From Streptantibioticus silvisoli (GTDB taxonomy: Bacteria; Actinomycetota; Actinomycetes; Streptomycetales; Streptomycetaceae), in assembly GCF_027947535.2 (NCBI RefSeq), contig NZ_JAAGKO020000002.1, positions 124,001 to 188,000 on the forward strand: DNA of 64,000 nucleotides, given 5' to 3'. A program made the translations under genes and the position numbers. Of the stretch, positions 3,751 through 55,832 are shown piece by piece (the first letter of the stretch is position 1; each line of letters begins with the position of its first letter). The notes below the pieces were generated by a model, which was not told the DNA's origin, did not search any database, and saw only the letters and a program-made list of their open reading frames with translations.

Positions 3751-4060
3751 GAGTGCACCCCCGGGACGCGAGGTGGATCGTCAGCACGAGGGCGAGGGCG
3801 AGCACGAGGGCGAGGACCGGTGCGATCAGCGCGGTGAAGATCGACCGCCGATCGGCCGCCTGCTGCTCGGCCGCTTTCTCCCGCTCGCGCTCGGCGCCCT
3901 CGAACTCCTTGCGCATCGTAGCCATGTCGCGGTCGCCCGGCGGCCCCGCGGGCGTCATAGACGTCCCGGCGGACGAGCTGGTCGAGGCGGACGGTCAGGT
4001 TGCCGCGAGCGTGTCCGTGATGAGCCGCCACAGCTCGGAGTTGGACGGCTCATCAGCCAC
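3747..4060 (-). pseudogene. Frameshifted small membrane protein, phage/holin-like
   Basis: From GTG 4060 the frame reads (V)ADEPSNSELWRLITDTL, then stops. The next frame gives NLTVRLDQLVRRDVYDAR, and a third gives a charged helix (KEFEGAEREREKAAEQQAA) followed by one transmembrane helix (TALIAPVLALVLALALV). The three pieces in order make one sensible protein: an N-terminal helix, a coiled coil and a C-terminal membrane segment. At least two frameshifts break it. The architecture recalls small phage membrane proteins near collagen-like genes; a holin role is not shown. Confidence 0.5.
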
Positions 4061-4506
4061 GGGTCACTTCCGGATGAGGCGGTTTGCGGAACGATCTGCC
4101 CGCCGTGGACGACGAACACGGCGCCCTCGACGGCCCGGCCGACGCGGTGACGGGCTCCGGCGCGGGCACGGCGGCCGGGGTCGGCCCGGTGTCGGCTGCG
4201 GTGTTGGTGCTGGGCTCGGCCATCGGCGCGGCCGGGGCGCCGAGTTGTGCCACCACGCCGTCGGGGAACGCCTTGGCGTCGTCGCTCAGCTCGGCCTCGA
4301 CCTTGCGGACGACCGGGCTGACGCCGGTCGCCGCGCCGGTCGCCGGCGCCTTCCGTGCGGCGGGTTCGATCGCTGGCAGCCGGCCGAGCCCCTTGTTGAT
4401 CTGCACCGTGTGGCTGATGGGCCGTCCGATGATGGCGATCCCGGCGGTGAGGAAGCCGGTGGCAGTGTCGGGCGTGATGCGTGTCCGGATACTGAACTTG
4501 AACGCG
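4053..4506 (-). pseudogene. Remnant open frame of unknown family in the phage-like block
   Basis: One minus-strand frame is continuous from about 4506 to the stop at 4053, reading FKFSIRTRITPDTATGFLTA, then GRPISHTVQINKGLGRLPAI, then a Pro/Ala-rich tail ending HPEVTRG. It looks like real coding sequence, but no start codon with a ribosome-binding site is evident, and the genes on both sides are frameshifted. No family is recognised. It may be a truncated structural gene of the same element. Confidence 0.4.
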
Positions 4507-4599
4507 CGATGTCGATCGGCTCGTGGTGGCGGTGTCGGGGGCTGAGACCGCCGGATGCTGCCGGCCCGGGTTCAGGACGGTGTCTGCACCCGGCGCCAG

Positions 4600-4933
4600 G
4601 CCGCAGCGAGATTCACCTCGACGTTCATCGCTCCGGGAGCAGACCTCCAGCCATGAGAGGCAGCCGCCCTGCGCGAAGACCAGGACCTCGCCTGGGCACT
4701 CACCGGTTTCGGTGAGTGGCTGTACGTCGGCAGCCACGACAGTGCCGGGGCCTGTTGGCGCCGGCTCCACCGCGTCGGTGTCGAGTTCGAAGTAGGCAGT
4801 ACCGCAACCGCATTTGCGACGGGATCGCACCCTGAGGGGACACCTGCCGTCGGAGGGCGAGGTGAGCGGGCTCGTCCGGGTTCAGGACGAGGCCAAGCAC
4901 GTCGGTTACGTCCTCGGGCAGACTGTCAGTCAT
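4600..4933 (-). pseudogene. Frameshifted conserved small protein with a CxC motif
   Basis: The frame begins at ATG 4933 with MTDSLPEDVTDVLGLVLNPD and EPAHLALRRQVS, then jumps frame into RSRRKCGCGTAYFELDTDAV and GECPGEVLVFAQGGCLSWLE before losing similarity. The joined order makes a plausible ~110-residue protein of a kind I believe occurs as a hypothetical protein in Streptomyces. The frameshift lies near 4815. It is therefore inactive or a sequencing error; decay on both sides favours real inactivation. Confidence 0.5.
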
Positions 4934-4996
4934 GCCGTCACCGTAGCTGACCAGCGGCTTTTGGCCGCGACCACGTCGGGTCCACTGACCCGGCGC

Positions 4997-6049
4997 TCAC
5001 AGGTTCAGGGGAAGGTCGGTGCTGGCGAGGCAGCCGTTGATGACCTCCGGTCGGTACTGCAAGCATCTTCAGTTTGCGCTTCACAGCGCGGGTGATTTTG
5101 CCGAGGTCGGCCGCAGCCAGATTGCCGATGTCTCGCTCGACCAGTGACCGGACGCCCTCGGTCGGATTGAGGTCCGGAGCATAAGTGGGCAGCAGCCACT
5201 CGGCGTTCGCGTCGATGAATTCGCGCATGCCAACCGTCGGGTGGAGGCGGACGTTGTCCCAGATCAGCACGATCGGCCCGCCGAGCCGGATGCGGGCGCG
5301 GACGATCAGGTTGTGGAAGTCGCGCCGGCCGAAGCCCTTCGGCTCGTCCTTCCGACCCCGGTACTCCTGGATCGCGTAGATCAGTCGGAAGCGCTCGCCG
5401 GGCCTTCAGCAGGTCATGCCTGCCATCGACACTCGTCCGGAGCCCCGGCCTCTGATTTTCACGACCGGGGTCCGGCCGATCCGGCCCCAGGTCCTGGCTC
5501 GCGGCGGAGTCATCTACTGCGCGGCCTCGTCCTCGGAGACGATCCGGGCCCCACGCTCCGCCACCGTGGTCCTACCCGCGGCCAGGTCTCCTTCTTCCAG
5601 ACCTCGACCGCGTCGTCATCGCGCTCGATCGCGCGTCTGGTGGGCTGCTGCCGGCTCGAGCCGTGTCGCTTCGGCAGCCGCCAAGTGCCTCGACCGTGCA
5701 GGAGACAGGGAAGAGTCGGCCGATCAGCCTTTTGATCCGCGCCAGCGTCCACCGCTGGTCCGCCCACCCGTGAGTCAACGGGCCGCACTCCAACTCCCGC
5801 TCCAGCCTGGCGATCTGGGCTTCGCTGAGCCGAGGTCTTCCCGGCGGCCCTTTCGACAGGACTCCAGCCTCTCCGCTCTCGGGCCGGGCCCGGCGCCACC
5901 GCTCGACCGACCGCACGCTGATCCGCAGGACAGAGGCGATCTCCGCGTTCTTCTGCCCAACCTCGACCCGCTCCACAGCCTGAAGCCGGTAACCGCTCCC
6001 GCGTGGCTCTCTCGGCGTCGGTCAACCCGCCGCCCTGTGCGTACCTCAC
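4997..6049 (-). mobile_element. Degenerate IS630-family transposase
   Basis: The minus strand carries an IS630-type transposase in pieces. First is an N-terminal helix-turn-helix part (VGQKNAEIASVLRISVRSVE, then GRPRLSEAQIARLERELE). Next come short central fragments in other frames. Last is the C-terminal DDE end with LIWDNVRLHPTV and YAPDLNPTEGV. The final residues (VINGCLASTDLPLNL, stop at 4997) are again in another frame. At least four frame changes make it non-functional. IS630 elements insert at TA; I could not identify terminal inverted repeats or a target duplication. It marks the right side of the decayed phage-like block. Confidence 0.8.
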
Positions 6050-6222
6050 GCTTCAGGGCTACCGGTGCCGACACACAACTGGGCGCCGCGGACAGTTGTG
6101 GAGACCCGGGCGCCGACCCGCCGATGCGGTATCGCGGCAGGCGCTTCACCCATATGGGTGACTGCGCCATATCAACTGACGGGTCATCATGTTGCAAAAG
6201 CGCGTGGCGCCGAGGGAGAAGT

Positions 6223-7149
6223 ATGAAGAATTTGCAGTCATTGAGGGGCGTGGGTGCGGTCATTACCGCAGCCCTGTTGGTCGCCGGATTGGGTTCCGAT
6301 CCGGCGCAGGCTGCCGAATCCCACAGCAGGGTTTTTGACGAGCCGGGCTACTTCGAGTTCAAGCTGCCTGATGGCGTGGAGACGTTCAAGGTCGCGCTGA
6401 TCGGCGGTGGCGGCGGCGGAGGTGGCGGCGGCCATGAAGGTCACGATGTCGGTGGTGGCGGCGGTGGTGGTGGAGCCGGCGGAGTCGCCACGTGCACCGT
6501 GTCGCTCCTGGACGACGGGTTCGCCATGATCGGAGTGCGTGTCGGGGGCGGCGGAGGCGGCGGGCAGAAGGGGGAACTGCGCGGCGGTGGCAAGGGCGGC
6601 CAGGGCGCGGGCGGCGGTGGTGACGGCATTCCGGGTAACCGGAACGACGGTGGCGGAGGCGGTGGTGGCGGAGGCGGCGGCGATTCGAAGATGTTCCTCG
6701 TCAATTTCCGTGGCCCGAACAGAGACGTCACCGATGCGGCCGTCGCGAGTGGGGGCGGTGGCGGTGGCGGTGGCACCGGCTTCGCCGCGCAGCAGGGCAT
6801 GGTGCCTGGTGGCAGGGGCGGCTCCGGCGGAGGTTCGTCCGGTGGTCACGCCGGCGCCCGGGGAAGCGATCTCAGGAAGGGCCCGCACAACGGCGGCGGG
6901 GGCGGGGGCGCCAGGTACCTGTGCGGGGGCGGTATCTGGAAGGTGCAATCGCGTGGGCACGGGGCGCAGGGTGGGACGGGAGGCGAGGCCAAGGCCGGAG
7001 GCACGGCCGGCCACCGCGGCACCCTCGACGGCCTGCCCGCCGGCATTCCGGCAACGGCGGGCCAGGGCGCGGCAGGCGGCTCCAGCAGCAGCGACAACAG
7101 CACCGGCGGCGCGACCGGGCACACCGGATACGTGGTCGTGAGCTGGTAA
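6223..7149 (+). CDS. Secreted glycine-rich protein A
   Basis: A 308-residue protein with a Sec signal (MKNLQSLRGVGAVITAALLV, cleavage near AQAAE) followed by VFDEPGYFEFKLPDGVETFK and long Gly tracts (up to 11 consecutive Gly), ending TGYVVVSW. The short non-Gly segments look like beta strands, so an extracellular Gly-loop beta scaffold is plausible. ATG 6223 is chosen because GGGAGAA precedes it and the signal begins there; a longer upstream frame runs antisense over the transposase remnant. A hairpin follows at 7290. A shorter relative with the same plan lies at 7810-8544. Function is unknown; surface coat or adhesin is possible. Confidence 0.8.
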   Translation: MKNLQSLRGVGAVITAALLVAGLGSDPAQAAESHSRVFDEPGYFEFKLPDGVETFKVALIGGGGGGGGGGHEGHDVGGGGGGGGAGGVATCTVSLLDDGFAMIGVRVGGGGGGGQKGELRGGGKGGQGAGGGGDGIPGNRNDGGGGGGGGGGGDSKMFLVNFRGPNRDVTDAAVASGGGGGGGGTGFAAQQGMVPGGRGGSGGGSSGGHAGARGSDLRKGPHNGGGGGGARYLCGGGIWKVQSRGHGAQGGTGGEAKAGGTAGHRGTLDGLPAGIPATAGQGAAGGSSSSDNSTGGATGHTGYVVVSW

Positions 7150-7289
7150 CCGGCTCCACTGCGGAGAGGGAAATCCGCTCAGGTGCGTGAATTCATCGAT
7201 CCGATTGGCGAACCATCATTTTCCTCATGAGGAAAATGCGCACCGCGACGGCCACAGCTGTTGCTTCCAGCCGACCCCTCCTGGCCGTG

Positions 7290-7323
7290 ACCTGTGCCTT
7301 GTCCGGCCGGGCAAGGCACAGGT
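7290..7323 (+). terminator. Hairpin after glycine-rich gene A
   Basis: Perfect 12-bp inverted repeat ACCTGTGCCTTG / CAAGGCACAGGT with a 10-nt loop, 141 nt past the stop at 7149 and with no intervening gene. Confidence 0.7.
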
Positions 7324-7439
7324 TCAGCCGTGGCCGGTTCGTCCCGGGCACGAAAGCCCCGAGCAGGTGATCCCGGATTCGCTGCCGCCCTCGGAATGCG
7401 GTGCCGCTGGCGGACTGCGGTGGACGGTGCCGTGATGCC

Positions 7440-9366: not shown

Positions 9367-9458
9367 CCGTTCGCCCACGTGCAAAGTGGTCACCCTGCCG
9401 GTCCACCGGCCCGGTGCGGTGCCGCGATCGCAACACTCCTCTCACCCTTGGAGGGTCC

Positions 9459-10745
9459 ATGCGAGTTGGAAGACGGATTCTGCGCAAAGCTCTCATCGCC
9501 GGCTCGGTGCTCGGGCTGACGGTCGGCGGCTCGGCCTTCGCGGCGGCCGCGACGCCAGCCGCGCAGCCGGCCACCACCTGCGCCGCGGCCTGGAGTTCCA
9601 CCACCGCCTACACCGCCAGCCAGCAGGCGAGTGAGAACGGGACCAACTACACCGCCAACTACTGGACCCAGGGCAACAACCCGGCGACCAGCAGCGGCGG
9701 AAGCGGTTCCGGGCAGCCGTGGACGTCCAACGGCGCGTGTACCGGCGGATCATCGGGGGGAGGGGGCGGGACCGGCACCGGGACCGGAACGGGTTCCGTG
9801 AGCGGCCTGCTCTTCAGCCCGTACAAAGACGTCACGATCAACATGAACTGGAACACCTACCAGATGCAGTCGGCCGCGAGCGGGGCCGTCCTGCCGGTGG
9901 TGGGCTCCGGCAGCCTGGTGTCGCAGGACCTGCCGAAGCTGCCCGCGCTCACGGTCGCGTTCGCCACCGGGGCCTGCGGCAGTGAGAACTGGGGTGGTGT
10001 CTCGGGCGCCAACTGGGCCGCCGAGAACGTGCCGCAGCTCCAGGCCGCCAACCTGAACTACGTCATATCGACCGGCGGTGCGGCCGGCACCTTCACCTGC
10101 GGCTCGACGGCCGGCATGGAATCGTTCATCGCCCGCTACGCCAGCCCGCACCTGGTCGGCATCGACTTCGACATCGAGGGCGGCCAGTCCCAGTCGGACA
10201 TCCAGAACCTGGTCGCCGCGGCGGCGGGAGCGCAGGCGCAGTACCCGAACCTGCAGTTCTCGTTCACCCTCGCCACGCTGGGAGCGTCCGACGGCAGCTA
10301 CGGCGGCGTGAACTCGCTCGGCGCCGGGGTCGTCCAGGCGGTGCTCGGCTCCAGCCTGAAGAACTACGTCATCAACCTGATGACCATGGACTACGGCAAC
10401 GCGTCCAGCAGCGTGTGCGTCGTCGCCTCCGGCAGCTGCGAGATGGCGCAGTCGGCGATCCAGGCGGTGACGAACCTCGAGCACACCTACAAGGTCCCGG
10501 CGAGCAAGATCGCCGTCACGCCGATGATCGGCATGAACGACGCCACCACCGAGACCTTCACCGCCGGTGACGTGGACACGCTGGCGTCGTACGCGAAGAG
10601 CAACGGCCTGGCCGGGCTGCACTACTGGTCGCTGGACCGGGACACCCCCTGCTCCGACGACTACGCGTCCCCCACCTGCAACTCGATCTCCAGCACGACA
10701 CCGCTGGAGTACACCAAGAAGTTCATGAGCGACCTCGGGGACTGA
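9459..10745 (+). CDS. Secreted GH18 chitinase with N-terminal CBM5/12-type chitin-binding domain
   Basis: A 428-residue protein: a signal peptide (~1-30); a small aromatic chitin-binding module (~40-92, with AAWSSTTAYTASQQASENGT and NYWTQGNNP); a Gly/Thr linker (~94-113); and a family-18 catalytic barrel. The catalytic DxDxE motif is GIDFDIEG (D236, D238, E240). MTMDYG and HYWSLDRDTPC fit the bacterial subgroup of small GH18 chitinases. ATG 9459 is preceded by GGAGGG. It hydrolyses chitin outside the cell to oligosaccharides. Regulation is clear from the promoter: two DasR-type sites. A strong terminator follows, so the gene is monocistronic. Confidence 0.95.
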   Translation: MRVGRRILRKALIAGSVLGLTVGGSAFAAAATPAAQPATTCAAAWSSTTAYTASQQASENGTNYTANYWTQGNNPATSSGGSGSGQPWTSNGACTGGSSGGGGGTGTGTGTGSVSGLLFSPYKDVTINMNWNTYQMQSAASGAVLPVVGSGSLVSQDLPKLPALTVAFATGACGSENWGGVSGANWAAENVPQLQAANLNYVISTGGAAGTFTCGSTAGMESFIARYASPHLVGIDFDIEGGQSQSDIQNLVAAAAGAQAQYPNLQFSFTLATLGASDGSYGGVNSLGAGVVQAVLGSSLKNYVINLMTMDYGNASSSVCVVASGSCEMAQSAIQAVTNLEHTYKVPASKIAVTPMIGMNDATTETFTAGDVDTLASYAKSNGLAGLHYWSLDRDTPCSDDYASPTCNSISSTTPLEYTKKFMSDLGD

Positions 10746-10756
10746 CACAGCACCCG

Positions 10757-10799
10757 GGGCGGGCCGCGCACGGACCACCGTGCGCGGCCCGCCCATTTT
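10757..10799 (+). terminator. Rho-independent terminator of the chitinase gene
   Basis: A 15-bp stem GGGCGGGCCGCGCAC / GTGCGCGGCCCGCCC followed directly by ATTTTT, 12 nt after the stop. Confidence 0.9.
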
Positions 10800-11078
10800 T
10801 CGGCCCGCCCATTGTGCGCGGACGCTCAATGAAGTCATGCATTCGAGCGTCAGCGCCTATTTCCCTGTTCCGGAAGGCCCGCGGCTTCCAGGCCGGTATC
10901 CGCTCGCCGTCCCGTACGAGCTGGCGTCCTTTCCGGAGACGGTCGAAAACCCGGCTTGCCGTTCAGCGCGATCGCCGTGGGGCGGTGATGCGGCCGGCCG
11001 GGACGTGTACGCCATGGCGCCGGTGGGCCGGATCGGGTCACCGGCCGGGCTGGCGGCGGACTTCGGGAGAGGGCTGCC
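10800..11078. other. Intergenic region between chitinase and I36-like gene
   Basis: No frame here has both a ribosome-binding site and a recognisable protein, and no clear hairpin or operator was seen. Confidence 0.4.
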
Positions 11079-11441
11079 TCAATCGTTGACGCACTGCCCC
11101 CGCTTGGCGGACAGAGCGCTGAAGCCGAAGTCGTACACGGTCTCGCCCCGGTTGACCTCGCGCGTCCGCCCCCGGTTGTCGAAGAACGGCCGGTCGTAGA
11201 AGCACCACGTCTGGAAGTCCTGGTTCACCGCGCTCCGCACGGGCGGTTGGAGCGCGGCCTCCTCGTCGAAGAGGAGACGCGAGTCACCCTCGAAGTTCGG
11301 CTCCGTCCAGGTGCAGACCGCGATGACCTGCGGACAGATCGGCTGGGCGGCCTGCGCTGGGGCGGCGGGGAGGACGGCCGTGCCGAGGCTCACCGTGGCC
11401 GTCGCGGAAAGCAGTCCCATTTTCTTCAGCAAAGTCTTCAT
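11079..11441 (-). CDS. Secreted I36-like (beta/gamma-crystallin-like) small protein 2
   Basis: From ATG 11441 the minus strand encodes 120 residues: a Lys-rich Sec signal (MKTLLKKMGLLSATATVSLG, cleavage near AQAA), then ICPQVIAVCTWTEPNFEGDS, WCFYDRPFFDNRGR and a final C-V-N-D. The CP-x-C-x-W-x-E-x-N-F-x-G opening and four Cys are typical of the peptidase-inhibitor I36/crystallin-like group, also seen at 2734-3075. GAAGGGGTGCGC precedes the start. Upstream (11460-11580) is AT-rich, again like the first copy. The target protease is unknown; a secreted inhibitor or wall-binding role is inferred. Confidence 0.75.
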   Translation of the reverse strand: MKTLLKKMGLLSATATVSLGTAVLPAAPAQAAQPICPQVIAVCTWTEPNFEGDSRLLFDEEAALQPPVRSAVNQDFQTWCFYDRPFFDNRGRTREVNRGETVYDFGFSALSAKRGQCVND

Positions 11442-11699
11442 GCGCACCCCTTCGATTCCGTGAATTCTGCGTGCTCTTCGACTGATGGATATCACGTGAG
11501 CAACGCGACGAAACCAGGGCTCGATAAGAGGCGTTATCTGCAAATAGCAATTTATTTTTCGGCTGTCGCTTCTCGGTAGCGCTTTGGTGAGCCGTTTGTC
11601 GATCTCGTGCGTCGGCTGCGGAGTGAAGCCCCGGGGCGCGGTGCCACCGGTGGACTCCGTTGGACGTTGCCGTGCGTTCACCTCCGGTGAGGTCCGTTG

Positions 11700-11822
11700 C
11701 CGGTACGTCCGTTGCCGGGGAGGTCCACCTCCCGCCGCCTCCAGCAGGTCGAGCAGCTCACCGGCGATGCCGCTCTTGCCGGAGCTGGACGTGCCGTTGC
11801 GCGGGATGACCGGCCGGGCGGG
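11700..11822 (-). pseudogene. Remnant of a chloramphenicol-phosphotransferase-like P-loop protein
   Basis: The minus strand reads VIPRNGTSSSGKSGIAGELL then DLLEAAGG. NGTSSSGKS is the characteristic P-loop of the chloramphenicol phosphotransferase-like family, and the following helix fits. An ATG at 11839 begins an adjacent frame (MRDTEHPPGR), so a frameshift separates start and P-loop, and coding ends soon after. Only the N-terminus is left, so no enzyme is expected. Confidence 0.4.
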
Positions 11823-11899
11823 TGCTCGGTGTCGCGCATGCCGTCAGCGTGCCGGATACGGCCCCGGACGCGCCCGGCGTTCCGCGGTCGGCGGACGCC

Positions 11900-11966
11900 G
11901 TTCAGTCGGGCACGGTTGAGCCGGGCACCGTTGAGCCGGACGCCGTTCAGCCTGGCACCGTTCAGC
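11900..11966. repeat. 15-bp tandem repeats encoding pentapeptide-like units
   Basis: Four and a partial fifth 15-nt units (GTTGAGCCGGGCACC type) run head to tail. On the minus strand, in a frame other than the adjacent L,D-transpeptidase, they read RLNGA RLNGV RLNGA RLNRA RLNGV, i.e. pentapeptide-repeat-like. The array overlaps the transpeptidase stop at 11962 and ends at an unrelated remnant. Confidence 0.7.
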
Positions 11967-12717
11967 CGATGGCAATCACCGGGTGGTCGGACGGGTCGAT
12001 CCACCGCAGGACGCGCGTCAGCACCGGCGCGGGTACCGCGACGCAGCCGGCGGTGGGGCCGCCCCGGGGGCCGAGGTCGTGCAGGAAGATCCCGGCGCCG
12101 CGGCCCCTGACGGCGGGGGCGGTGTTGAAGTCGACGACCAGGGCGTTGTGGTACTGGACGGGGTACTCCGCCAGGTGCTCGCTGCCGTTGTCGCCGGTCT
12201 CGGTGAGGTGGAAGCCGCCGAGGACCGAACTGCGCATCGTGTTGTAGTAGGCGGACGTGGGGTCCTCCACCCACCAGTCGGTGCCGGTCACCCGGTGGTA
12301 CGGCATCCGCGTGCCGGGGTCGGCGCCCACCCCGAAGGCGCGGCTGAGGGAGTACGTGCCGGCGGGCGTGGTGCCGGTGCCCTGCCGCCGGGTGGCGCCG
12401 GGGGTGAGGCCGTGGGCGCCGACGCGGGCGCCGTCGGTGCTGACGACCGGCTCCCAGCCGCCGCCGGTGCGCTGCCAGGCGGTGACGGTGGCGTGCGTGC
12501 CGCGGGCCACGACCGTGATGACCTGCGTGGTGGCCGGCCCGGCGGCGACCGCTACCGGGAGGACGGGGCTCGGGAGAACGGGCCCCGGCACGCCGGCCGC
12601 ACCGGCCGCGTCGGCGCCGCCGCCGAGCAGCAGGGCGGCGGCGAGCACCGGGACGGCGCTGCGGCGCAGGACGCCGGTGCGGCGGGGGGAGTTGGAGGAG
12701 CCGAAAGAGGGGGGCAT
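11962..12717 (-). CDS. Secreted L,D-transpeptidase (YkuD-type) family protein
   Basis: A 251-residue protein with an N-terminal export signal (~16-45), a Pro-rich stretch and a C-terminal catalytic domain. Near the C-terminus GAGIFLHD followed by GGPTAGCVAV gives the His and Cys of the H-x(n)-(S/T)xGC signature of L,D-transpeptidases, which form 3-3 cross-links or attach proteins in peptidoglycan. Within the family it belongs to the shorter group without a recognisable added domain. ATG 12717 is chosen because the signal begins there; GGAAG lies upstream. It stands alone. The frame is open far upstream through low-complexity repeats, which I exclude. Confidence 0.85.
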   Translation of the reverse strand: MPPSFGSSNSPRRTGVLRRSAVPVLAAALLLGGGADAAGAAGVPGPVLPSPVLPVAVAAGPATTQVITVVARGTHATVTAWQRTGGGWEPVVSTDGARVGAHGLTPGATRRQGTGTTPAGTYSLSRAFGVGADPGTRMPYHRVTGTDWWVEDPTSAYYNTMRSSVLGGFHLTETGDNGSEHLAEYPVQYHNALVVDFNTAPAVRGRGAGIFLHDLGPRGGPTAGCVAVPAPVLTRVLRWIDPSDHPVIAIG

Positions 12718-12991
12718 GCGGTGCGCTTCCGGTGGGGTGACGGTGGCGGTTCGACGCTGCCCGGTCCATCGGGGCCGACGGAAATCGGACGTTACGTCAG
12801 CGATTGTCCCGCGCGCACCGCCACGGACGCTCCTTGACGGTCGTACGGCGTGCCGTGTGCCGTGCCCGCGCAGGGGCCGGCTGACGTACACGTGCTGCGT
12901 GCCGTGCGCCCGCGCGGACGCCGGCTGACGTGTACGTACCGCATGCCGCGCCGCGGCGGACACCTTCCCCTGCGGCGCACCGCCACCGCCT
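12718..12991. other. Intergenic, low-complexity, no gene
   Basis: GC-rich sequence with GTGCCGTG/CGCCGGCTGACGT-type duplications (around 12885 and 12915). One early diverged copy of the 34-bp repeat (from about 12834) lies here. No convincing gene. Confidence 0.4.
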
Positions 12992-13160
12992 TTTCGACGA
13001 TCGTGCGGTGTACTGCGTCCTGCCTTGTCGACGGTCGTGCCGTGTACTGCGTGTTCTTCGGCAATCGTGCGGTGTACCGCGTGCTGCCTCGTCCACGGTC
13101 GTGCGGTGTGCCGCGTGCTGCCTCGTCCACGGTCGTGCCGTATACCGCGTGCCGTCTCTT
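12992..13160. repeat. Five degenerate ~34-bp tandem repeats, each with an inner dyad
   Basis: The landmark TCGTGC recurs at 13001, 13035, 13065, 13099 and 13133, i.e. spacings of 34, 30, 34 and 34. Each unit has the form CGACGGTCGTGC-GGTGTACCGC-GTGCTGCCTCGTC, and most contain the imperfect dyad GCGGTGTACCGC. The unit is not a multiple of three, so it is not protein-coding in origin. Diverged units continue to about 13220. The array ends ~250 bp before the small peptide gene at 13471. Confidence 0.7.
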
Positions 13161-13470
13161 CACCAGCCGAGCCGCGTACCGCCTCCCCAGCAGCCGCGCC
13201 GCGCACCGCATACCGCCCCCACACCCGCACCGCCCCCCAACCCCCGCCCCCAACCGCCGCGCAGCGTACCCGTACCGCCCGGACGGTCGGGTCTGCCGGG
13301 TGGGACGACGGGGGCGCGGGGGCTGTGAGCTGGCGGGGCGGCGGGATGGGAGCGGGGCGACATCGTGGTGACAGGCGGGCGTTGGGGGCGCGTTAGGACG
13401 CCGGTGGACTCTTCGTCCGGGCAGTCCGCCGGCGGTCGTCGCCGAGGGAGGCCCCTTAACGAAGGGACCG

Positions 13471-13593
13471 ATGATGAAGAAGATCGAGGTTCGCAAGACC
13501 GGCGACGTCCGCCTGACCAGCCACGCCAACCCGCTGTACGGCGCGGTGAACGCGGGCGTGCACGCCAACCTGACGATCATCACCTGCGGCTGA
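13471..13593 (+). CDS. 40-aa putative RiPP precursor or signalling peptide
   Basis: ATG ATG opens a 40-residue peptide: MMKKIEVRKTGDVRLTSHAN followed by PLYGAVNAGVHANLTIITCG and TGA. GAAGGG lies 4 nt before the first ATG and 7 nt before the second, so 13474 is equally possible. The N-terminal half is basic and charged, leader-like. The C-terminal half is hydrophobic with Thr, His, Asn and one Cys one residue from the end, core-like. There is no Sec signal. It lies upstream of a membrane M50 protease and a TPR protein on the same strand, with a strong hairpin between. This layout is typical of precursor-peptide genes. I do not recognise the peptide family; modification and export are inferred only from context. 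Confidence 0.65.
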   Translation: MMKKIEVRKTGDVRLTSHANPLYGAVNAGVHANLTIITCG

Positions 13594-13605
13594 GCCGTTG
13601 ACGCC

Positions 13606-13648
13606 GGCTGCCCGCGGGACCGCGCCCGGCGCGGCCCCGCGGGCAGCC
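13606..13648 (+). terminator. Long near-perfect hairpin between peptide and protease genes (attenuator)
   Basis: GGCTGCCCGCGGG pairs with CCCGCGGGCAGCC (13 bp). After one A/C mismatch, CCGCGCC pairs with GGCGCGG around a minimal loop, so about 20 bp pair within 43 nt. There is no T tract. Located 13 nt after the peptide stop and 40 nt before the next gene, it would act as a partial terminator or mRNA stabiliser, raising peptide transcript over downstream genes. Confidence 0.8.
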
Positions 13649-13687
13649 GCCACACCCCGCTGACCCGATCAGGACGAAGGTGGAGCG

Positions 13688-14944
13688 TTGGCAACCGTGG
13701 CCGACGAAGGACAACAGGCCGGACCGGCCGTCTTCGACCCCTCGCGGCCGGTTCCCGTGCACCCGCTGACCTACCTCGACGAGGGGGACGAGGTCACGGT
13801 GGGCCGCCGGGAGGCCGGCACGTACGTGGTGCTGCCCGCGGACGGCGCCGCGCTGCTGCGCAGACTGGAGGCAGGGGCCACGCCGGCCGAGGCGGCCGCC
13901 TGGTACCGGGAGACCTACGGCGAGCCGGTCGACATGGCCGACTTCTGCGACACCCTCGGCGAGCTGGGCTTCCTGCGGGCGGCTGGCGAGGACGCGGTCG
14001 CGGACGAGGGTCCGGTGCGCTGGCAGCGGCTGGGCCGGGCGCTGTTCTCGCTGCCCGGGGCGCTGCTCGCCGTCGCCCTGCTGGCGTTCGCGGTCGTGGA
14101 GATGCTCCGGGTGCCGGGCCTGGCACCGCGCTACACCTACGTCTTCTTCAGCCGCTCGATGGTGCTCAACGGCGTGGTGCTGGCGTTCGGCCAGATCCCG
14201 CTGGTGCTGCTGCACGAGGCCGCGCACGCGCTGGCCGGCCGGCGGCTGGGTCTGCGCTCGCACCTGTCGATCGGCCGGCGGCTGTACTACCTGGTGTTCC
14301 TCACTGAGCTGAACGGCCTCGTCACCGTCGAGCGGCGCAAACGCTACCTGCCGATGCTCGCCGGGATGATCACCGACGTGCTGGTGGCCGCGGCGCTCGT
14401 GCTGGCCGCCGACGCCATCCGGCAGGACGGCCACCTGACGATGGCCGGCCGGATGCTGCTGGCCGTCGCCTACTTCACCCTCGTCCGCATCCTGTGGCAG
14501 TTCCTGTTCTATCTGGAGACGGACCTGTACTACGTGGCCGTCACCGTGCTGGGCTGCGTGGACCTCCAGACGACGGCCCGGCGGGTCGCGTACAACAACC
14601 TGGCGCGGCTGGCCGGGCGGCGCACCCCCAGGTACGACGAGTCGGTCTTCCATCCGCGCGACCGCGAGGTGGCCCGCTGGTACTCCTGGCTGGTCGTCGT
14701 GGGGTACGCGGTGTCCATCGGCATGCTGCTGATGACGACCGTGCCCATGATCACCATGATCCGCCTGGTCTTCGGCCGCTTCCTGCACCCGGCGCAGGCC
14801 AGTACCGGCGGGCTGGTCGACAGCGGCACGTTCGTCCTGATCATCCTGGCCCAGGTCTTCCTGCTGCTGCGGCCCACCCTCCAGGCCCGCCGCGCCGCCC
14901 GGGCGGCCACCGCCGACCGCGTCCTGCTGAACGGAGAGTCATGA
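13688..14944 (+). CDS. Membrane M50-family zinc metalloprotease with possible PqqD-like N-terminus
   Basis: A 418-residue integral membrane protein. Residues ~20-98 form a soluble alpha/beta domain (HPLTYLDEGDEVTVGRREAG, with ALLRRLEAGATPAEAA) that resembles PqqD/RiPP-recognition domains by eye. Hydrophobic helices follow at ~118-140, 155-185, 222-242, 258-275, 335-360 and 380-395. LLHEAAHALAG (H176-E177-x-x-H180) is the HExxH zinc site inside a membrane helix, as in M50 proteases; FYLETDLYYV (~274-283) may supply the third ligand. The start is uncertain: TTG 13688 has GAAGG 7 nt upstream and GTG 13697 has GGAG further away. ATGA overlap couples it to the TPR gene. The expected job is cleavage of the adjacent peptide's leader, or its export. 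Confidence 0.8.
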   Translation: MATVADEGQQAGPAVFDPSRPVPVHPLTYLDEGDEVTVGRREAGTYVVLPADGAALLRRLEAGATPAEAAAWYRETYGEPVDMADFCDTLGELGFLRAAGEDAVADEGPVRWQRLGRALFSLPGALLAVALLAFAVVEMLRVPGLAPRYTYVFFSRSMVLNGVVLAFGQIPLVLLHEAAHALAGRRLGLRSHLSIGRRLYYLVFLTELNGLVTVERRKRYLPMLAGMITDVLVAAALVLAADAIRQDGHLTMAGRMLLAVAYFTLVRILWQFLFYLETDLYYVAVTVLGCVDLQTTARRVAYNNLARLAGRRTPRYDESVFHPRDREVARWYSWLVVVGYAVSIGMLLMTTVPMITMIRLVFGRFLHPAQASTGGLVDSGTFVLIILAQVFLLLRPTLQARRAARAATADRVLLNGES

Positions 14945-17241
14945 CCACCGCCCCCGCACACCGCTGGCTCGTCACCGCGGACGGCACCCGGGCCGCCGCC
15001 GCCCCCGGCCCGGACGCGCCGGCGCTGCTGCCGACGGTCAGCGCCCACCGGCGGCTGCGCGGTCCGTACACCGCGGCCGGCACGATCCTGCGGGCCGTGG
15101 TGCCGCAGGCGCTGGAGCGCTTCCCCGACCTGGTCGAGGCCCACCTCATCGAACTGCTGTCCGCCGCACCGGAGTTGCGCAACTCGGTACCCGCTCCGGA
15201 GGGCACGCTGACCTCGCTGGCCATCCCGAAGGAACGCACCCGGTTCTACTCCCGGCTGCGCACCCAGCGCATCGCGCACGGCATCACCGACTTCCTCCGT
15301 GATCTGATGCTCCGTCAACCAAGCGGTCCCGCAACGCTGGTGATTGAACGCGCCGAGGAAGCCGACGCCACCGACGCCGAGTTCACCGCGATCCTGCTGC
15401 GCCGGATGCCCGCCGAACTGCTGGCCGTCACGGTGGTGACCGCCGCCGGCGCCACGCCGCAGCCCGGACTGGTGACCGCGCTGGAGCGGTACGCGACCCG
15501 CACCGACCTGCCCCCGGCCCCGCCGGCCCCCGCCGAGGAGACCGCCAACCCGTTTGACGCCGCCCGCCGTTGGGTCGACAGCGAGTGCCTGGCCACCGAT
15601 CCGGCCGGCCGGGCCGCCTACCGGGCGCTGGATGCGGCCGACCGCGCCGCGCTGCACGACGCCCGCGCCGAGGCGCTGGAGAACGGCGGCCAGGGTTCGC
15701 GGCGCCTCGGCGCGATCCCGTTCCACCGCGAACACGGCGCGGACCCGTCCGGCGCCGGCGTCGAGGCGCTCTACCTCGCCTCCGACTGGTGCATCGCGCT
15801 CGGCTTCTACGACATCACCATCGAACTGGCCCGGCGCGGGATCGCGTTGACCCCCGAGGGCGAGGAACAGGACTTCGGCAGCGGGCCGGTGCCGCGCTGG
15901 TGGCCGCTGACCACCAAGGTCACCATGTCGCTGTCCGCGCTCGACCGGGCCGAGGAGGCGCTCGCCGTCTACGACGCCACCCGGGCCCGCACCACCTCGC
16001 CGCGCGTCCACATGCACGCCGCCTACGCCACCGCCATGCTCTACACCCGCCACCTGCCGCCCGAACGCCGCGACCACCGCATGGCCCTGGGCTGGGCCAA
16101 CATCGCCATCGCGTTCGCCGCCGGCATCGACGAGAGCGAGGACCGGGCGTTCTCCACCGTCTTCCAGCAGAACGGCCGCGCCCTGGTCGAGGGCCACCTG
16201 GGCAACGCCGAGGAGGCGCTCGCCCTGGTCACTGACGGGATCGCCCGGCTGGACGCCGAACTGGGCGAGAACGACCACGCGCTGCACCGCTCGGTACTGC
16301 GCCACAACCGCGCCCTGGTCCTGAAGGGCCTCGGCCGGCTCCAGGAGGCACGCGAGGACTACGAGACGGTCATCGCCCTCGACCCGAACTACGCCGAGTA
16401 CCACTTCGAGTACGCCGGCCTGCTGCGGGGCCTCGGCGAGGAGGAACGGGCGCTCGCCGAGTACGACGTCGCCGCCCGGCTGACCCCGCCGTTCGTCGAG
16501 CTGTTCTACAACCGCGGGGACCTGCGGGCCGTGCGCGGCGACGTGGCCGGCGCGCTCGCCGACTTCGACTACGTGCTCGAACTCGACCCGGAGTACGTCG
16601 ACGCCTACGTCAACCGGGCGGCGCTGCTGCTGCGCGAGGGCGACCTCGACGGCGCCGCACGCGACGTCGAGGCCGGCCTGCGGCTGCGCCCCGGCGACCC
16701 GCACCTGCGCAGCCAGCGGGCCCGCGTGGCCTGGGAACGCGGCGCGCTGCGGGAGGCGATCGAGGTACTCGACGGTGTGCTGCGCGACGCGCCCGACATG
16801 GCCGAGGCGTGGGCGCTGCGGGCCGCCGTGCGGTTCGACGACGCGGACCCGGCCGGCGCGCTCGCCGACCTGACCGCGTCGCTGGACCGCGAGGAGTCGG
16901 CCGCCGTCCGGTTCAACCGGGGTGCGGTGCACGAGGAGTTGGGCCGGTTCGCCGAGGCCGCCGAGGACTTCGGCCTCGCGATCGGCCAGGACCCCGGCGA
17001 CCCCGACGGCTGGCTGCGGCACGCCGTCTGCGCCGCCCGCCTCGGCGACCACGCCACCGCCCGCGCCGACCTCGCCCACTGCGCCGCCCTCGCGCCGGAC
17101 CGCGCGGCGCAGGCGACGGCGGAGGTGGAGGAGGCGCTGGCGGGGGATGCGGTGAGGGGCGGTGCGGTGGCTGGGGGTGCCGCGGTTGACGGTGCGGTGG
17201 TCGACGGTGCCGTGGCCGGTGGGGCGGTGGCCGCCCGGTGA
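14941..17241 (+). CDS. Large TPR-repeat protein with degenerate ATPase-like N-terminal region
   Basis: A 766-residue soluble protein. Around residues 110-165, RIAHGITDFLRDLML, GPATLVIERAEEADATDAEF and LLAVTVVTAAG resemble the Walker-B part of STAND/LuxR-type ATPases, but no Walker A is present. From ~250 the protein is helical and becomes canonical TPRs at ~480-740 (DYETVIALDPNYAEYHFEYA; DFDYVLELDPEYVDAYVNRA). The final ~30 residues are a Gly/Ala/Val repeat (GGAVAGGAAVDGAVVDG). Its ATG overlaps the protease stop (ATGA), so the two are made together. It may bind the peptide or a partner enzyme, as TPR proteins do in RRNPP-type peptide sensing, but no DNA-binding domain is seen. Confidence 0.8.
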   Translation: MTTAPAHRWLVTADGTRAAAAPGPDAPALLPTVSAHRRLRGPYTAAGTILRAVVPQALERFPDLVEAHLIELLSAAPELRNSVPAPEGTLTSLAIPKERTRFYSRLRTQRIAHGITDFLRDLMLRQPSGPATLVIERAEEADATDAEFTAILLRRMPAELLAVTVVTAAGATPQPGLVTALERYATRTDLPPAPPAPAEETANPFDAARRWVDSECLATDPAGRAAYRALDAADRAALHDARAEALENGGQGSRRLGAIPFHREHGADPSGAGVEALYLASDWCIALGFYDITIELARRGIALTPEGEEQDFGSGPVPRWWPLTTKVTMSLSALDRAEEALAVYDATRARTTSPRVHMHAAYATAMLYTRHLPPERRDHRMALGWANIAIAFAAGIDESEDRAFSTVFQQNGRALVEGHLGNAEEALALVTDGIARLDAELGENDHALHRSVLRHNRALVLKGLGRLQEAREDYETVIALDPNYAEYHFEYAGLLRGLGEEERALAEYDVAARLTPPFVELFYNRGDLRAVRGDVAGALADFDYVLELDPEYVDAYVNRAALLLREGDLDGAARDVEAGLRLRPGDPHLRSQRARVAWERGALREAIEVLDGVLRDAPDMAEAWALRAAVRFDDADPAGALADLTASLDREESAAVRFNRGAVHEELGRFAEAAEDFGLAIGQDPGDPDGWLRHAVCAARLGDHATARADLAHCAALAPDRAAQATAEVEEALAGDAVRGGAVAGGAAVDGAVVDGAVAGGAVAAR

Positions 17242-17273
17242 GCGACGGGGCCGCGGCGGGTCGTCCCCGTCGC
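17242..17273 (+). terminator. Hairpin after the TPR gene
   Basis: GCGACGGGG / CCCCGTCGC pair (9 bp) directly after the stop; an alternative pairing GGGGCCGCG / CGCGGCCCC overlaps it. Confidence 0.6.
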
Positions 17274-17336
17274 GGCCCCGGACGTCGCGGCCCCGGATGT
17301 CGTTGGCCCCGGATGTCGCCGGCCCCGGACATCGCG
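17271..17336. repeat. 15-16-bp tandem repeats between convergent genes
   Basis: Units of the form GCGGCCCCGGATGTC repeat about four times with small changes in the gap between the TPR gene and the SARP gene. No reading frame is associated. Confidence 0.6.
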
Positions 17337-17443
17337 GCTTGGAGATCGTGGCTCCGGCTCCGGCACCGGAGGTCCGGGGCGCGGGGCCCCGGACATCGCA
17401 GCCCCCGGCCCCGGCACCGGCGTGCCTCCCGCGCGGCCCGCCG

Positions 17444-18202
17444 TCAGGCGTACGTACCGGGGGCGAACGACTCGCCGGACAGGACGCGTTGGTGCGCCTG
17501 GCGCAGTTCGAAGCCGGGTTCGATGCCCAACTCGCTGTTGAGCAGCCGGCGGGCGTCCTGGTAGACGGCCAGCGCCTCGGCCTGCCGGCCGGTCCGGCAC
17601 AGCACGGTCATCAACTGGCAGTGGAAGCGCTCACGCAGCGGGTGGGCGCCGACCAGCTGGCGTAATTCGCCGACCAGCAGCGGGTCGTGGCCGGACCGCA
17701 GGTCCGACTCGATGCGCCACTCGACCAGTTGGAGCCACCGTTCGGTCAGCGCCGGCACCCACGCGCCGCGCAGCGGTTCGCACGGCACGTCGCCCAGCGG
17801 GGTGCCGCGCCACAGGTTCAGCGCGGCGCGCAACGGCGCCCCGGTCCGTTCCCAGGCGCCGGCCACGACGGCGGCCTGCGCGGCGCGGGAGAGCGTCTCG
17901 AAGGCCATCAGGTCCGACTCCGCGTCGTGGACCTCCAGTTGGTAGCCCGGGAAGCTCGTCACGAGTCGCGCGCCGGCCGGGCCGATCGTCCGTCTGAGCC
18001 GGTTGACGTGGTTGTGCAGCGCCGCGCGCCACGACGGGGGCGGCGTGCCGTCCCAGACCAGGTCGGCCAGGTGGTCGACGGAGACGGGGTGGTTGGCGCT
18101 CAGGATCAGGGTGGCGAGCAGGACCCGCTGTTTGGGGGCGGGGACCAGACGGCGGACGGTCCCGTCGTGGACCAGGAGTTGTCCCAGAACGCCGAATTTC
18201 AT
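17444..18202 (-). CDS. SARP-family (AfsR/BTAD) transcriptional regulator with a TTA codon
   Basis: A 252-residue protein: an OmpR-type winged-helix DNA-binding domain (~1-95, MKFGVLGQLLV, LLATLILSANHPVSVDHLAD, LRRTIGPAGARLVT) and a bacterial transcriptional activation domain (~100-245, with ERFHCQLMTVLCRTGRQAEA and ARRLLNSELGIEPG). This is the minimal SARP form that activates antibiotic and RiPP clusters. ATG 18202 follows GGGGGA at a good distance; an upstream ATG at 18223 is less likely. A TTA leucine codon (complement 17663-17665, in GELRQLV) makes translation dependent on the bldA tRNA, linking it to development. It is convergent with the peptide-protease-TPR genes and is their probable activator. 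Confidence 0.9.
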   Translation of the reverse strand: MKFGVLGQLLVHDGTVRRLVPAPKQRVLLATLILSANHPVSVDHLADLVWDGTPPPSWRAALHNHVNRLRRTIGPAGARLVTSFPGYQLEVHDAESDLMAFETLSRAAQAAVVAGAWERTGAPLRAALNLWRGTPLGDVPCEPLRGAWVPALTERWLQLVEWRIESDLRSGHDPLLVGELRQLVGAHPLRERFHCQLMTVLCRTGRQAEALAVYQDARRLLNSELGIEPGFELRQAHQRVLSGESFAPGTYA

Positions 18203-18672
18203 ACTTATCCCCCTGATGAGCATTCATCTCAGCTAATGGGATCCTCAATGTAGGACCCGTCGAGAGAAAACAACAGAGCTCGCGCACACGGATGATCGGG
18301 GCGGGCATGAGGCCCGGGGGACGTCGGCACGGCATCCGCGAGGGACGTGCGTGACCTCGGCCGCAGGAGGCGCGTTCCCTGCTGTTGTACGGCCGGACGC
18401 CCCCGAACGGCGAAGTCATTGCCCAGCTTTTGCGCGACGTTGGCCGCCGGTCCGGCCACCGCGTCCGGCGGTGCGCCCAGAGGGGCCGGCGGTGCGGCCG
18501 GGAGGCGTGGGGCGCGGCCTCCGTCGGGCGGCAGGGTGGGGCCGGACCCGCCACAGGCCCGGCCCCGATGTCCGCGGCGAGCGCCAGCAGCCTGGACGCG
18601 GTCCACGCTAGACGGTGCCACTGACAACGCGGCCGGCGTCAGGGGTTGGACGGCGCGGCCCGGTGTCCGACG
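18203..18672. other. Intergenic region upstream of the SARP gene
   Basis: About 470 bp without a recognisable gene. The part next to 18202-18260 is AT-richer and probably holds the SARP promoter. The part near 18600-18672 may contain the lost 3' end of the hydrolase gene that stops at 18673. Confidence 0.4.
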
Positions 18673-19386
18673 TCACCGGAGGCGGAGCCGGCGCCTTCGC
18701 CCACCGTGACCGGAGCCGACCGCCAGAGCCTTCGCGGCCGGGAGCGAGGGCCACATCAGGTCGTCGCCGCCGGCGACCAGCAGCAGGTCCGCGGCGGCGT
18801 CCTCCACCCGTAGTCGCGCGGCGACCGCGCGGTCGGCGTAGGCGAGCAGGCTGCGTTCGTACCAGCCGAGGATCGACACCGGTCCGTCCTGCGGCTCGTC
18901 CGGTGTCCAGCCGTCGACCGGCGGCACGAACGGCAGGGGTACGCCCCGCCAGGTCCAGCACGAGCGGTACGGCCGGGACGCGCCGTCGGTGCCGGGGCCG
19001 ACGTTGCCCCACACCGTGCCGGTGGGCGACAGCGCCACCACCGCGTCCACCGAGGGGTCGCGGACCGCCAGGGCGAGCGCGGCCTCGGCGCCCTTGGAGA
19101 CGCCGAGCACGCCGACCCGGCCGGCGCCGTGCGCGCGCAGCGTCGCCAGGCCGGCGGCGAACGTCTCCAGCGGGATCTCGCAGATCCCCGGTGACTGCCC
19201 CGGGCCGCCGAACCAGCGGATCGCCAGCGCGACGAGGCCGGCCCGGGCCAGCAGCCGGGCCCGCTCGCGTTCCAGCCGGCCGCTGGACCCGGACAGCACC
19301 AGCACCCCGGCCGCGGCGCCGCCCGCCGGTCGCACGAGCAGTCCGGGCCAGGGGGCGGTCGTCTCGCGCTCGACGGGGTCCGGCAC
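18673..19386 (-). CDS. BAAT-type acyl-CoA thioester hydrolase/alpha-beta hydrolase, probably 3'-truncated
   Basis: About 237 residues. GVLVLSGSSGRLERERARLL, IRWFGGPGQSPGICEIPLET and GVSKGAEAALALA (nucleophile elbow G-x-S-x-G) match the BAAT C-terminal domain group of alpha/beta hydrolases. DLLLVAGGDDLMWPS near the end supplies the acidic-residue region, but coding then turns to low-complexity Arg/Gly (GGRRRRLRLR) and stops. The final strand-helix with the catalytic His found in intact members is missing, so a frameshift or deletion near 18720 is likely. The start is set at GTG 19386, 17 nt after the small lipoprotein gene; the longer frame overlaps that gene. Confidence 0.6.
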   Translation of the reverse strand: MPDPVERETTAPWPGLLVRPAGGAAAGVLVLSGSSGRLERERARLLARAGLVALAIRWFGGPGQSPGICEIPLETFAAGLATLRAHGAGRVGVLGVSKGAEAALALAVRDPSVDAVVALSPTGTVWGNVGPGTDGASRPYRSCWTWRGVPLPFVPPVDGWTPDEPQDGPVSILGWYERSLLAYADRAVAARLRVEDAAADLLLVAGGDDLMWPSLPAAKALAVGSGHGGRRRRLRLR

Positions 19387-19403
19387 AGCCGCCGGGCCGC
19401 CGA

Positions 19404-19559
19404 TCAGTGGTGGTGGTAGTGGTGGACGATGACGTGGTGGTGCACCACCGTGTGGTGGACCACGGTGTGGTGCGTGACGGTGTGGTGGGTGCACGCGCTG
19501 GAGAACAGGGCGACGGCGAGAAGTCCGGTGGTGGCGGCGAGCGTCCGCATCTTCGACAT
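19404..19559 (-). CDS. His-rich mini-lipoprotein, putative metal (nickel) binder
   Basis: From ATG 19559 the minus strand encodes 51 residues: MSKMRTLAATTGLLAVALF-SSAC, a lipoprotein signal with a lipobox-like SSAC, then a mature chain of 28 residues almost wholly His, Val and Thr (THHTVTHHTVVHHT, then VVHHHVIVHHYHHH). Half of the mature residues are His. Such a surface-anchored chain would bind Ni2+, Co2+ or Zn2+. ATG 19565 would add two residues; no strong ribosome-binding site was seen for either, so the start is uncertain. It lies divergent from a NiCoT permease with a Nur-type box between them. Other frames here are just reflections of the CACCAC repeats. Confidence 0.65.
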   Translation of the reverse strand: MSKMRTLAATTGLLAVALFSSACTHHTVTHHTVVHHTVVHHHVIVHHYHHH

Positions 19560-19711
19560 GATCATGTACACGCGACTACCCGCACAGTGGTTGCACAGAC
19601 TTCAGTGAGATCTACCTCTCACACCCCTCCCGTTGCGCCCAAGTCCCGTTTGTTCAATAGGAGTTGGTCTCACTCGTGGTAAACCCCCACCCGGATGCCG
19701 ATCCGACGCTA

Positions 19712-19728
19712 TTGCGAACCACTTGCAA
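19712..19728 (+). promoter_or_regulatory. Nur-box-like nickel operator
   Basis: TTGCGA-ACCAC-TTGCAA matches the published Streptomyces Nur box tTGCaa-N5-ttGCAA with one deviation. It lies 75 bp upstream of the NiCoT gene and between it and the divergent His-rich lipoprotein. TTGCAA could also act as a -35 element, with TACTAC or TACGCT downstream, so binding would block transcription. Confidence 0.7.
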
Positions 19729-19802
19729 GTAGGAAGAAACGGCTACTACGCTCATTGTGCTGCGCCGACGAGGCGTGCGCCGACGAGTAGGGAGAGGCCC
19801 GC

Positions 19803-20945
19803 ATGGCCGTCACAACGACCGCCGCCGCGCCCGAGGCGCCGGCGTCCGGCTGGAGCCGGTTCCGTAACTCGATGACCCGGCGTGAGTGGGCGCGGATGAG
19901 CGGGATGGCCGGCTTCGTCGTGCTGCTGCACGTGGTCGGCTGGGTGACGCTGCTGGTGATCGTCGCGCCGCAGCACCTGAGTGTGGGCGCCAAGTCGTTC
20001 GGCATGGGCATCGGCGTGACCGCCTACACCCTCGGTATGCGGCACGCGTTCGACGCCGACCACATCGCGGCCATCGACAACACCACGCGGAAACTGATGC
20101 ATCAGGGCCAGCGGCCGCTGTCGGTCGGCTTCTGGTTCTCCCTCGGCCACTCCAGCATCGTCTTCGGGCTGGCGTTCCTGCTGTCGATGGGCGTCAAGGC
20201 GCTGGCCGGCCCGGTGGAGGACGACGGCTCCCAGCTGCACAACGTCACCGGGCTGGTCGGCACCACGGTCTCCGGCGCGTTCCTCTACGTCATCGCGATC
20301 ATCAACATCGTGATCCTGCTGGGGATCTGGAAGGTCTTCCGCTCGATGCGCTCCGGCGAGTTCGACGAGGCGGCGCTGGAGGAGCACCTCAACAACCGCG
20401 GCCTGATGAACCGGTTGCTGGGCCGGGTGATGAAGTCCATCAGCAAGCCCTGGCAGATGTATCCGGTCGGCCTGCTGTTCGGCCTCGGCTTCGACACCGC
20501 CACCGAGATCGCCCTGCTGGTGCTGGCCGGTTCCGGCGCCGCCTCCGGCCTGCCCTGGTACGCGATCCTGTGCCTGCCGGTGCTGTTCGCGGCCGGCATG
20601 TCGCTGCTGGACACCATCGACGGCTCGTTCATGAACTTCGCCTACGACTGGGCGTTCTCCAAGCCGGTCCGCAAGGTCTACTACAACCTCACCATCACCG
20701 GCCTGTCGGTCGCGGTCGCCCTGATCATCGGCACCGTGGAACTGCTCGGCCTGCTCGTCCAGCAGCTGCACCTGCGCGGCGCGTTCTGGAACTGGGTCGG
20801 CGGCATCGACCTCAACGCCATCGGCTTCGTGATCGTCGGACTGTTCTTCGTCACCTGGCTGGCGGCGCTCGCGGTGTGGAAGTTCGGCCGCATCGAGGAG
20901 AAGTGGTCGGCCGGACTGCGCCCCGCCCCCGAACCCGCCGACTGA
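19803..20945 (+). CDS. NiCoT-family high-affinity nickel/cobalt permease
   Basis: A 380-residue inner-membrane protein with about eight transmembrane helices. The family signature RHAFDADHIAAIDN (HX4DH, metal recognition) is in the second helix. FSLGHSSIVFGLAFLLSMG and LLFGLGFDTATEIALLVLAG are the other two conserved NiCoT motifs. It imports Ni2+ and/or Co2+ at trace concentration, typically for Ni-SOD, urease or hydrogenase. ATG 19803 has AGGGAGAGG upstream. The Nur-type box in the promoter suggests repression when nickel is sufficient. The length agrees with the family. Confidence 0.95.
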   Translation: MAVTTTAAAPEAPASGWSRFRNSMTRREWARMSGMAGFVVLLHVVGWVTLLVIVAPQHLSVGAKSFGMGIGVTAYTLGMRHAFDADHIAAIDNTTRKLMHQGQRPLSVGFWFSLGHSSIVFGLAFLLSMGVKALAGPVEDDGSQLHNVTGLVGTTVSGAFLYVIAIINIVILLGIWKVFRSMRSGEFDEAALEEHLNNRGLMNRLLGRVMKSISKPWQMYPVGLLFGLGFDTATEIALLVLAGSGAASGLPWYAILCLPVLFAAGMSLLDTIDGSFMNFAYDWAFSKPVRKVYYNLTITGLSVAVALIIGTVELLGLLVQQLHLRGAFWNWVGGIDLNAIGFVIVGLFFVTWLAALAVWKFGRIEEKWSAGLRPAPEPAD

Positions 20946-55786: not shown

Positions 55787-55832
55787 CGTGTGAAGGCCGG
55801 TGAGGAAGCGATTCCTCACCGGCCTTCACACG
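55787..55832. terminator. 21-bp perfect hairpin between convergent genes
   Basis: CGTGTGAAGGCCGGTGAGGAA pairs completely with its reverse complement around a GCGA loop. It sits between the MaoC gene (stop 55674) and the small minus-strand gene ending at 55842, and probably terminates both. Confidence 0.9.

Follow-up and report, generated by a model that had tools for sequence, protein, structure and literature searches.

A U-poor hairpin conserved in structure behind the precursor gene of a RiPP-like protease operon of Streptomycetaceae: a probable leaky terminator

In the window, i.e., the whole stretch of 64,000 nucleotides of Streptantibioticus silvisoli DNA that was analysed, a short gene for a putative precursor peptide and the gene of a membrane protease are separated by a very stable hairpin with no T tract behind it. 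The question raised by this locus is whether such a structure, placed inside an operon, is a functional element and, if so, whether it stops the polymerase, protects the RNA, or serves some other purpose. The features concerned are as follows.

13471–13593, plus strand: precursor peptide gene, 40 codons (40 aa) from the first ATG, MMKKIEVRKTGDVRLTSHANPLYGAVNAGVHANLTIITCG
13605–13649, plus strand: hairpin, with arms 13605–13618/13636–13649 and 13620–13625/13629–13634 and loop 13626–13628; T tract absent
13650–13696, plus strand: spacer between the hairpin and the protease start, with a ribosome-site-like stretch GGTGGAG at 13680–13686 (found by eye)
13688–14944, plus strand: membrane metalloprotease gene, with HExxH at residues 176–180 and a modelled N-terminal RRE/PqqD-like domain
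14941–17241, plus strand: TPR-repeat protein gene, overlapping the protease stop by 4 nt
17246–17280, plus strand: second U-poor hairpin (15 pairs, loop of 5), just past the last gene

The second ATG of the peptide gene, at 13474, is the likelier start, since the MKKI of the homologues begins there; GAAGGG at 13461–13466, read by eye, is a possible ribosome site of this gene. The protease, encoded on the same strand as the peptide after a short spacer, may start with TTG at 13688 or with GTG at 13697, the latter being better spaced from the ribosome site; the distance from the stem to the start is 38 or 47 nt, respectively. The hairpin at 17246–17280 is the probable end of the operon; it is U-poor, unlike the hairpin at 10757–10794 after an upstream chitinase-like gene, which is T-tailed. 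Two features of the flanks are recorded for completeness. At 12849–13209, between an L,D-transpeptidase-like gene and the peptide gene, lie imperfect tandem repeats whose periods range from 27 to 64, and an AfsR/SARP-type regulator (17444–18223, minus strand) is convergent with the peptide operon. Homologues of the regulator were found beside locus L006 (63% identical) and beside L001 and its duplicate L015 (33%), and none in the short flanks examined of the remaining loci of L001–L037.

The hairpin consists of 14 outer base pairs, an A.C mismatch (13619/13635), and 6 inner base pairs. It had been described initially as about 20 pairs within 43 nt at 13606–13648, directly after the peptide stop, ahead of the protease gene, and lacking a T tract. 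On inspection, this description holds with minor adjustment: 20 pairs lie in 45 nt, the stem begins 11 nt past the stop codon (which ends at 13593), and none of the 8 bases 3' of the stem is T. A comparison of its folding energy with that of shuffled sequence, suggested in the same description, was also favorable, as the 76-nt stretch with the hairpin has a folding energy of −50.4 kcal/mol, whereas 200 dinucleotide shuffles average −35.45 (sd 2.87; z −5.21) and include none as stable. In a scan of the whole 64 kb with loops of 3–9, the hairpin ranked joint first among 16 stems scoring at least 40. It shares this rank with an inverted repeat of equal strength at 55787–55832 (21 pairs, loop of 4), located close to a gene end. 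Hence, the hairpin is confirmed as an observation. It was also considered as a member of a repeat family, and this option was rejected because, genome-wide, the 14-nt arm occurs only in the two arms of the hairpin and as a single lone copy on another contig. The Rfam search of 13300–13800 returned no plus-strand match at E ≤ 1 and no family at the gathering threshold; a mir-21 match on the minus strand, scoring far under that threshold, was dismissed as a chance hit.

The preliminary description likened the place of the hairpin to that of partial terminators in lanthipeptide and other RiPP operons, and the operon does look RiPP-like, with its conserved leader, hypervariable tail, and a modelled fusion of an RRE/PqqD-like domain with a site-2-protease fold. 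The precursor leader, MKKIxVRKxGxVRLTSxA or a near variant of it, precedes the protease gene in 116 of 117 loci (duplicates included); it was recognized by pattern in 106 of them and by reading in 10 more, when the 11 pattern-less loci were re-read; in the last one, L095, only the end of the leader is seen. A few hits of the regular-expression search for precursors were false extras, among them the first entry for each of L091 and L103 and, in L108, a shadow ORF; the L108 precursor was assigned by hand. The tail following the leader is short and hypervariable, usually with a cysteine. Several loci (L034, L036, L037, L019) have 2 to 5 precursor genes in tandem, as counted by pattern, ahead of one protease, with some of the leaders degenerate. 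In NCBIfam and Pfam, no model matched the peptide from the window at E ≤ 1, and nothing was found that would mark it as a lanthipeptide.

The structural model of the protease (mean pLDDT 90.9) displays an N-terminal domain of three strands and three helices, and its residues 22–99 match the leader-bound RRE of the lasso-peptide B1 protein (5v1u_A) with Z 10.0 and rmsd 2.2 over 78 aligned residues. Judging by the fold only, the protease is predicted to carry a leader-binding domain of the RRE/PqqD-like type; the Foldseek E-values of the model are weak (best 0.13), and the Pfam PqqD match is under the cut-off. Its membrane part matches RseP (Z 8.7, 8.1, and 7.9) and SpoIVFB (7.7). For the protease and TPR models, no kinship was read from values of Z under ~8, save for these RseP-like matches; they are borderline in Z, yet in accord with a weak Pfam M50 match and with the HExxH motif, which all 30 of the 30 aligned relatives share. 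In NCBIfam, the models for the proteases of epipeptides and daptides give the protease weak scores, under their cut-offs; in particular, NF058609 (epipeptide protease YydH/LiaK) gives 19.9 bits versus a cut-off of 225 and is matched at E ≤ 0.01 by 2 of 30 aligned relatives. No radical SAM epimerase was detected among the eight Pfam-scanned proteins of the window (9414–20942), and no maturase among the scanned neighbours of the protease. The model of the TPR protein, considered as a possible peptide receptor, is a generic TPR superhelix.

The taxonomic distribution of the operon was assessed by searching for its protease, which was found at 7 loci in a first contig scan, in 65 of 200 sampled genomes of the same family, and in 3 of 396 genomes across the phylum, the window's own genome being one of the three. 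The scan of 200 genomes, together with the first scan, gave 117 protease loci, duplicates included, and removal of near-identical spacers left 77 non-redundant loci, which are still mutually related. A homologue of the TPR gene follows the protease in all 37 loci of L001–L037. In the Streptacidiphilus sp. 4-A2 locus L006 (~3960–7340), the protease and TPR frames seem to be broken by frameshifts, perhaps due to sequencing errors. A flavin reductase gene (PF01613) comes right after the TPR gene, mostly overlapping it, in L049 (6237–6752), L050 (12592–13119), L051 (12522–13037), and L056 (6488–7027), possibly as an extra enzyme of some clades; L004, L052, and L055, left out of the Pfam scan, look similar by eye. 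Overall, the operon comprising a hypervariable peptide, an RRE/site-2-protease fusion, and a TPR protein is widespread in the family, with the peptide apparently unnamed and lacking an NCBIfam or Pfam model. The leader strings did not occur in the literature text that was searched, although the family may still have been published.

Conservation of the hairpin in homologous loci, another check put forward in the preliminary description, also gave a positive result. A stem with a score of at least 35 lies within 100 nt of the last peptide stop in 60 of the 77 non-redundant loci, while the same score is reached in 12 of 105 same-strand gaps (60–250 nt), 23 of 128 convergent gene ends, and 6 of 71 divergent regions. 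The gaps of this background lie in the window, in 11 stretches taken along its contig, and in 20 homologous regions, with genes predicted by a simple codon-usage caller (478 genes in 657 kb, small genes being missed). Fisher's test for 60/77 versus 12/105 gives p 1.5e-20, a value that ignores shared ancestry and serves as a guide only. The stem score beats at least 99 of 100 dinucleotide shuffles in 66 of the 77 loci. In the median, a stem comprises 16 pairs and begins 16 nt past the stop. Among 32 distinct loci, the folding-energy z is below −2 after the stop in 27, versus 10 of 32 controls covering the 100 nt upstream of the peptide gene.

What is conserved is the presence and the structure of the hairpin, with its sequence free to vary. 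Clades differ in the sequence of the stem, and so do even the three nearest relatives (L006, L008, L009), each of which bears one. In a clade of 8 sequences, 95.2% of the cells are paired, 5 of 16 pairs have changed on both sides, and the covariation score is 0.281 versus 0.187 in shuffled alignments, none of which (0/500) scored as high. Where precursors are in tandem, the best stem stands behind the last of them in three loci of four (L019, L036, L037); in L034, a good stem after the last copy is absent. Strong stems (scores 47 and 56) were recorded in L129 and L131, which belong to another family of the same class, and none (score 24) in L130 from another class. The score stays under 35 in 17 of the 77 loci, seven of which (L023, L031, L034, L073, L085, L091, and L125) are no better than their shuffles; nonetheless, by the energy measure, L023 and L031 possess hairpins of −35.2 and −32.0 kcal/mol.

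The kind of element can be further narrowed by comparison with known terminators. The window hairpin has the GC-rich stem-loop of a canonical intrinsic (Rho-independent) terminator and no U tract, and it was not listed by a consensus terminator scan because the scan requires a T-rich tail. The same is typical of the relatives: at least 5 T in the 8-base tail were counted in 1 of the 77 loci and at least 3 in 7, the tail being shortened by the 100-nt window in L019, L027, L028, L031, and L056. PMC8269248 assigns a transcript end of Streptomyces clavuligerus to the highly structured, U-lacking class if the folding energy of the preceding 40 nt is under −23 kcal/mol at 30 °C and the 8 nt that follow the stem contain fewer than 3 U. 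With the 3' end assumed to lie 4 nt beyond the stem, the window hairpin, with −30.2 kcal/mol for the same length and temperature and 0 U among the 8 nt, would fall into this class together with 53 of the 77 loci, counted in the same way, the others being U-rich (6) or less structured (18). The same paper reports, from Term-seq in S. clavuligerus, that read-through is greater where an end lacks U than where it is U-rich, and that U-lacking ends occur inside operons, too.

Taken together, these data make it fairly probable, in our opinion, that the hairpin acts as an intrinsic-type terminator that leaks, in the U-poor version usual for high-GC relatives of Streptomyces, and so provides a surplus of the precursor transcript. 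Transcription would start upstream of the peptide gene; many of the transcripts would stop just past the hairpin, at ~13650–13655, carrying the peptide gene alone, and the remaining ones would continue into the protease and TPR genes. As a result, the precursor peptide would be in surplus over the RRE-protease, whose predicted role is to bind the leader of the precursor and to cut it. The partial stop of the polymerase at the hairpin and the ensuing ratio of the transcripts are what we infer here from the sequences. The hairpin probably raises the peptide over the enzyme, because most of the relatives keep it at this place despite changed letters, and the partial-terminator interpretation, as proposed initially, gains real support from this conservation and can be considered partly supported. 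Still, several facts speak against a leaky terminator: the 17 loci without a stem of score 35, the frequent structure in the upstream controls (the 10 of 32 mentioned above), the likeness of an inverted repeat at the DNA level, and the weakness of the RNA-specific sign (see below). A stem nearly without U may also terminate poorly or not at all. It is doubtful, though conceivable, that read-through at the hairpin is regulated by the products of the operon (the mature peptide, the RRE-protease, or the TPR protein) or by the state of the colony, which would make it a built-in switch of this unnamed Streptomycetaceae system of an RRE plus a site-2-protease.

The main rival to the leaky terminator is a stability element, or RNase barrier: the polymerase would pass the hairpin freely, the polycistronic RNA would be cleaved or degraded from its 3' side, and the hairpin would block the exonucleases, so the peptide RNA would outlive the protease–TPR part with the same excess of the peptide message. 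This explanation agrees with the very stable stem, the near absence of a U tract, and the conserved structure. In addition, PMC8269248 suggests that U-lacking ends may be I-shaped intrinsic terminators or, alternatively, Rho-dependent or processed ends trimmed to the stem. No cleavage site or signature was identified at the locus, however, and other genes, the last one of the operon among them, are also followed by such hairpins, a position that a terminator fits at least equally well; we regard a stability element as possible, albeit unlikely. A hairpin this strong right behind the peptide gene could also be a full terminator, giving the peptide gene its own transcript and leaving the protease–TPR pair with its own promoter. 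A protease start was callable in 54 of the 60 strong-stem loci, and in 14 of these 54 the space needed for such a promoter exists, with 65–151 nt between the stem and the start. Against it, most loci offer little room for a promoter, since the gap between the stem and the start is at most 60 nt in 40 of the 54, and a Shine–Dalgarno-like motif is present in 35 of those 40. In the window, a sigma-70 consensus scan of 13650–13696, of limited worth in the host's group, showed no promoter-like match. Full termination is, therefore, improbable; most simply, the protease is translated from RNA passing the hairpin.

The remaining explanations concern the reality of the RNA structure itself. An inverted repeat is symmetric in DNA, so the palindrome might be the binding site of a regulator or another DNA element. 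The sign that would distinguish the two is modest: G.U pairs outnumber A.C mismatches by 30 to 16 in 67 stems defined without favoring either (p 0.027), an excess that weakly points to an element acting at the RNA level. At the same time, the stem sequences differ wholly between the clades while the complementarity of the arms, the loop, and the distance to the stop are kept, which is unusual for an operator, and the element lies downstream of the first gene; a DNA-level role appears very improbable. As to chance or an artefact of the GC content, a high-GC background does fold well, and 15 of the 32 upstream control windows also contain a hairpin below −25 kcal/mol. Still, the comparison with the shuffles, the contrast with the same-strand gaps, and the covariation make this the explanation with the least to recommend it, and it is disfavoured. 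The leaky terminator remains our preferred reading.

If this reading is true, the locus represents a clean case of an intra-operon hairpin kept as structure, not as sequence, over dozens of diverged copies of the operon. Given such structure-only conservation, comparison and simple reporters could then test whether the U-poor hairpins of high-GC bacteria act as terminators or as RNase barriers. The combination of the leader, the hairpin, the RRE-protease, and the TPR gene also offers a handle for searching for this widespread peptide family, for which neither NCBIfam nor Pfam has a model.

Lantibiotic operons such as that of nisin harbor partial terminators after the precursor gene, typically low in GC and often with some U tract. 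The hairpin described here resembles them in its location, behind a small precursor gene and ahead of the first gene for processing, and in the expected excess of precursor over enzyme; it differs in its GC-rich, U-poor stem and in that nothing seen marks its peptide as a lanthipeptide. A literature search for partial-terminator precedents in lanthipeptide, nisin-type, and other RiPP operons returned nothing usable. As to the protease, enzymes of the M50 family act in the epipeptide and pearlin pathways, as reported in PMC10885120. The protease from the window is similar to those of epipeptides, pearlins, and daptides (PMC10885120; NF058609, NF041824) and to TmcP of TMcins (PMC13252029) in being a membrane metalloprotease encoded beside a small precursor and in sharing, according to the model, a site-2-protease-like core. 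It is unlike them in the predicted fused N-terminal RRE/PqqD-like domain, the TPR partner, and the lack of a maturase among its scanned neighbours. The closest counterparts of the hairpin itself are found in Streptomyces. In the TERMITe report (PMC12207403), hairpins of this genus are described as few-U, the most stable, and the longest, with covariation, and the long, GC-rich, U-poor stem seen here is alike. The likeness to the highly structured U-lacking transcript ends (HS-U-lack TEPs) of PMC8269248 extends to the stem energy, the paucity of U, and the position at a gene end. Those ends are single sites, whereas the hairpin reported here is a family-wide hallmark of one type of operon. The hairpin is a familiar kind of element, and what is less usual is its setting in an apparently unnamed RRE-protease peptide operon.
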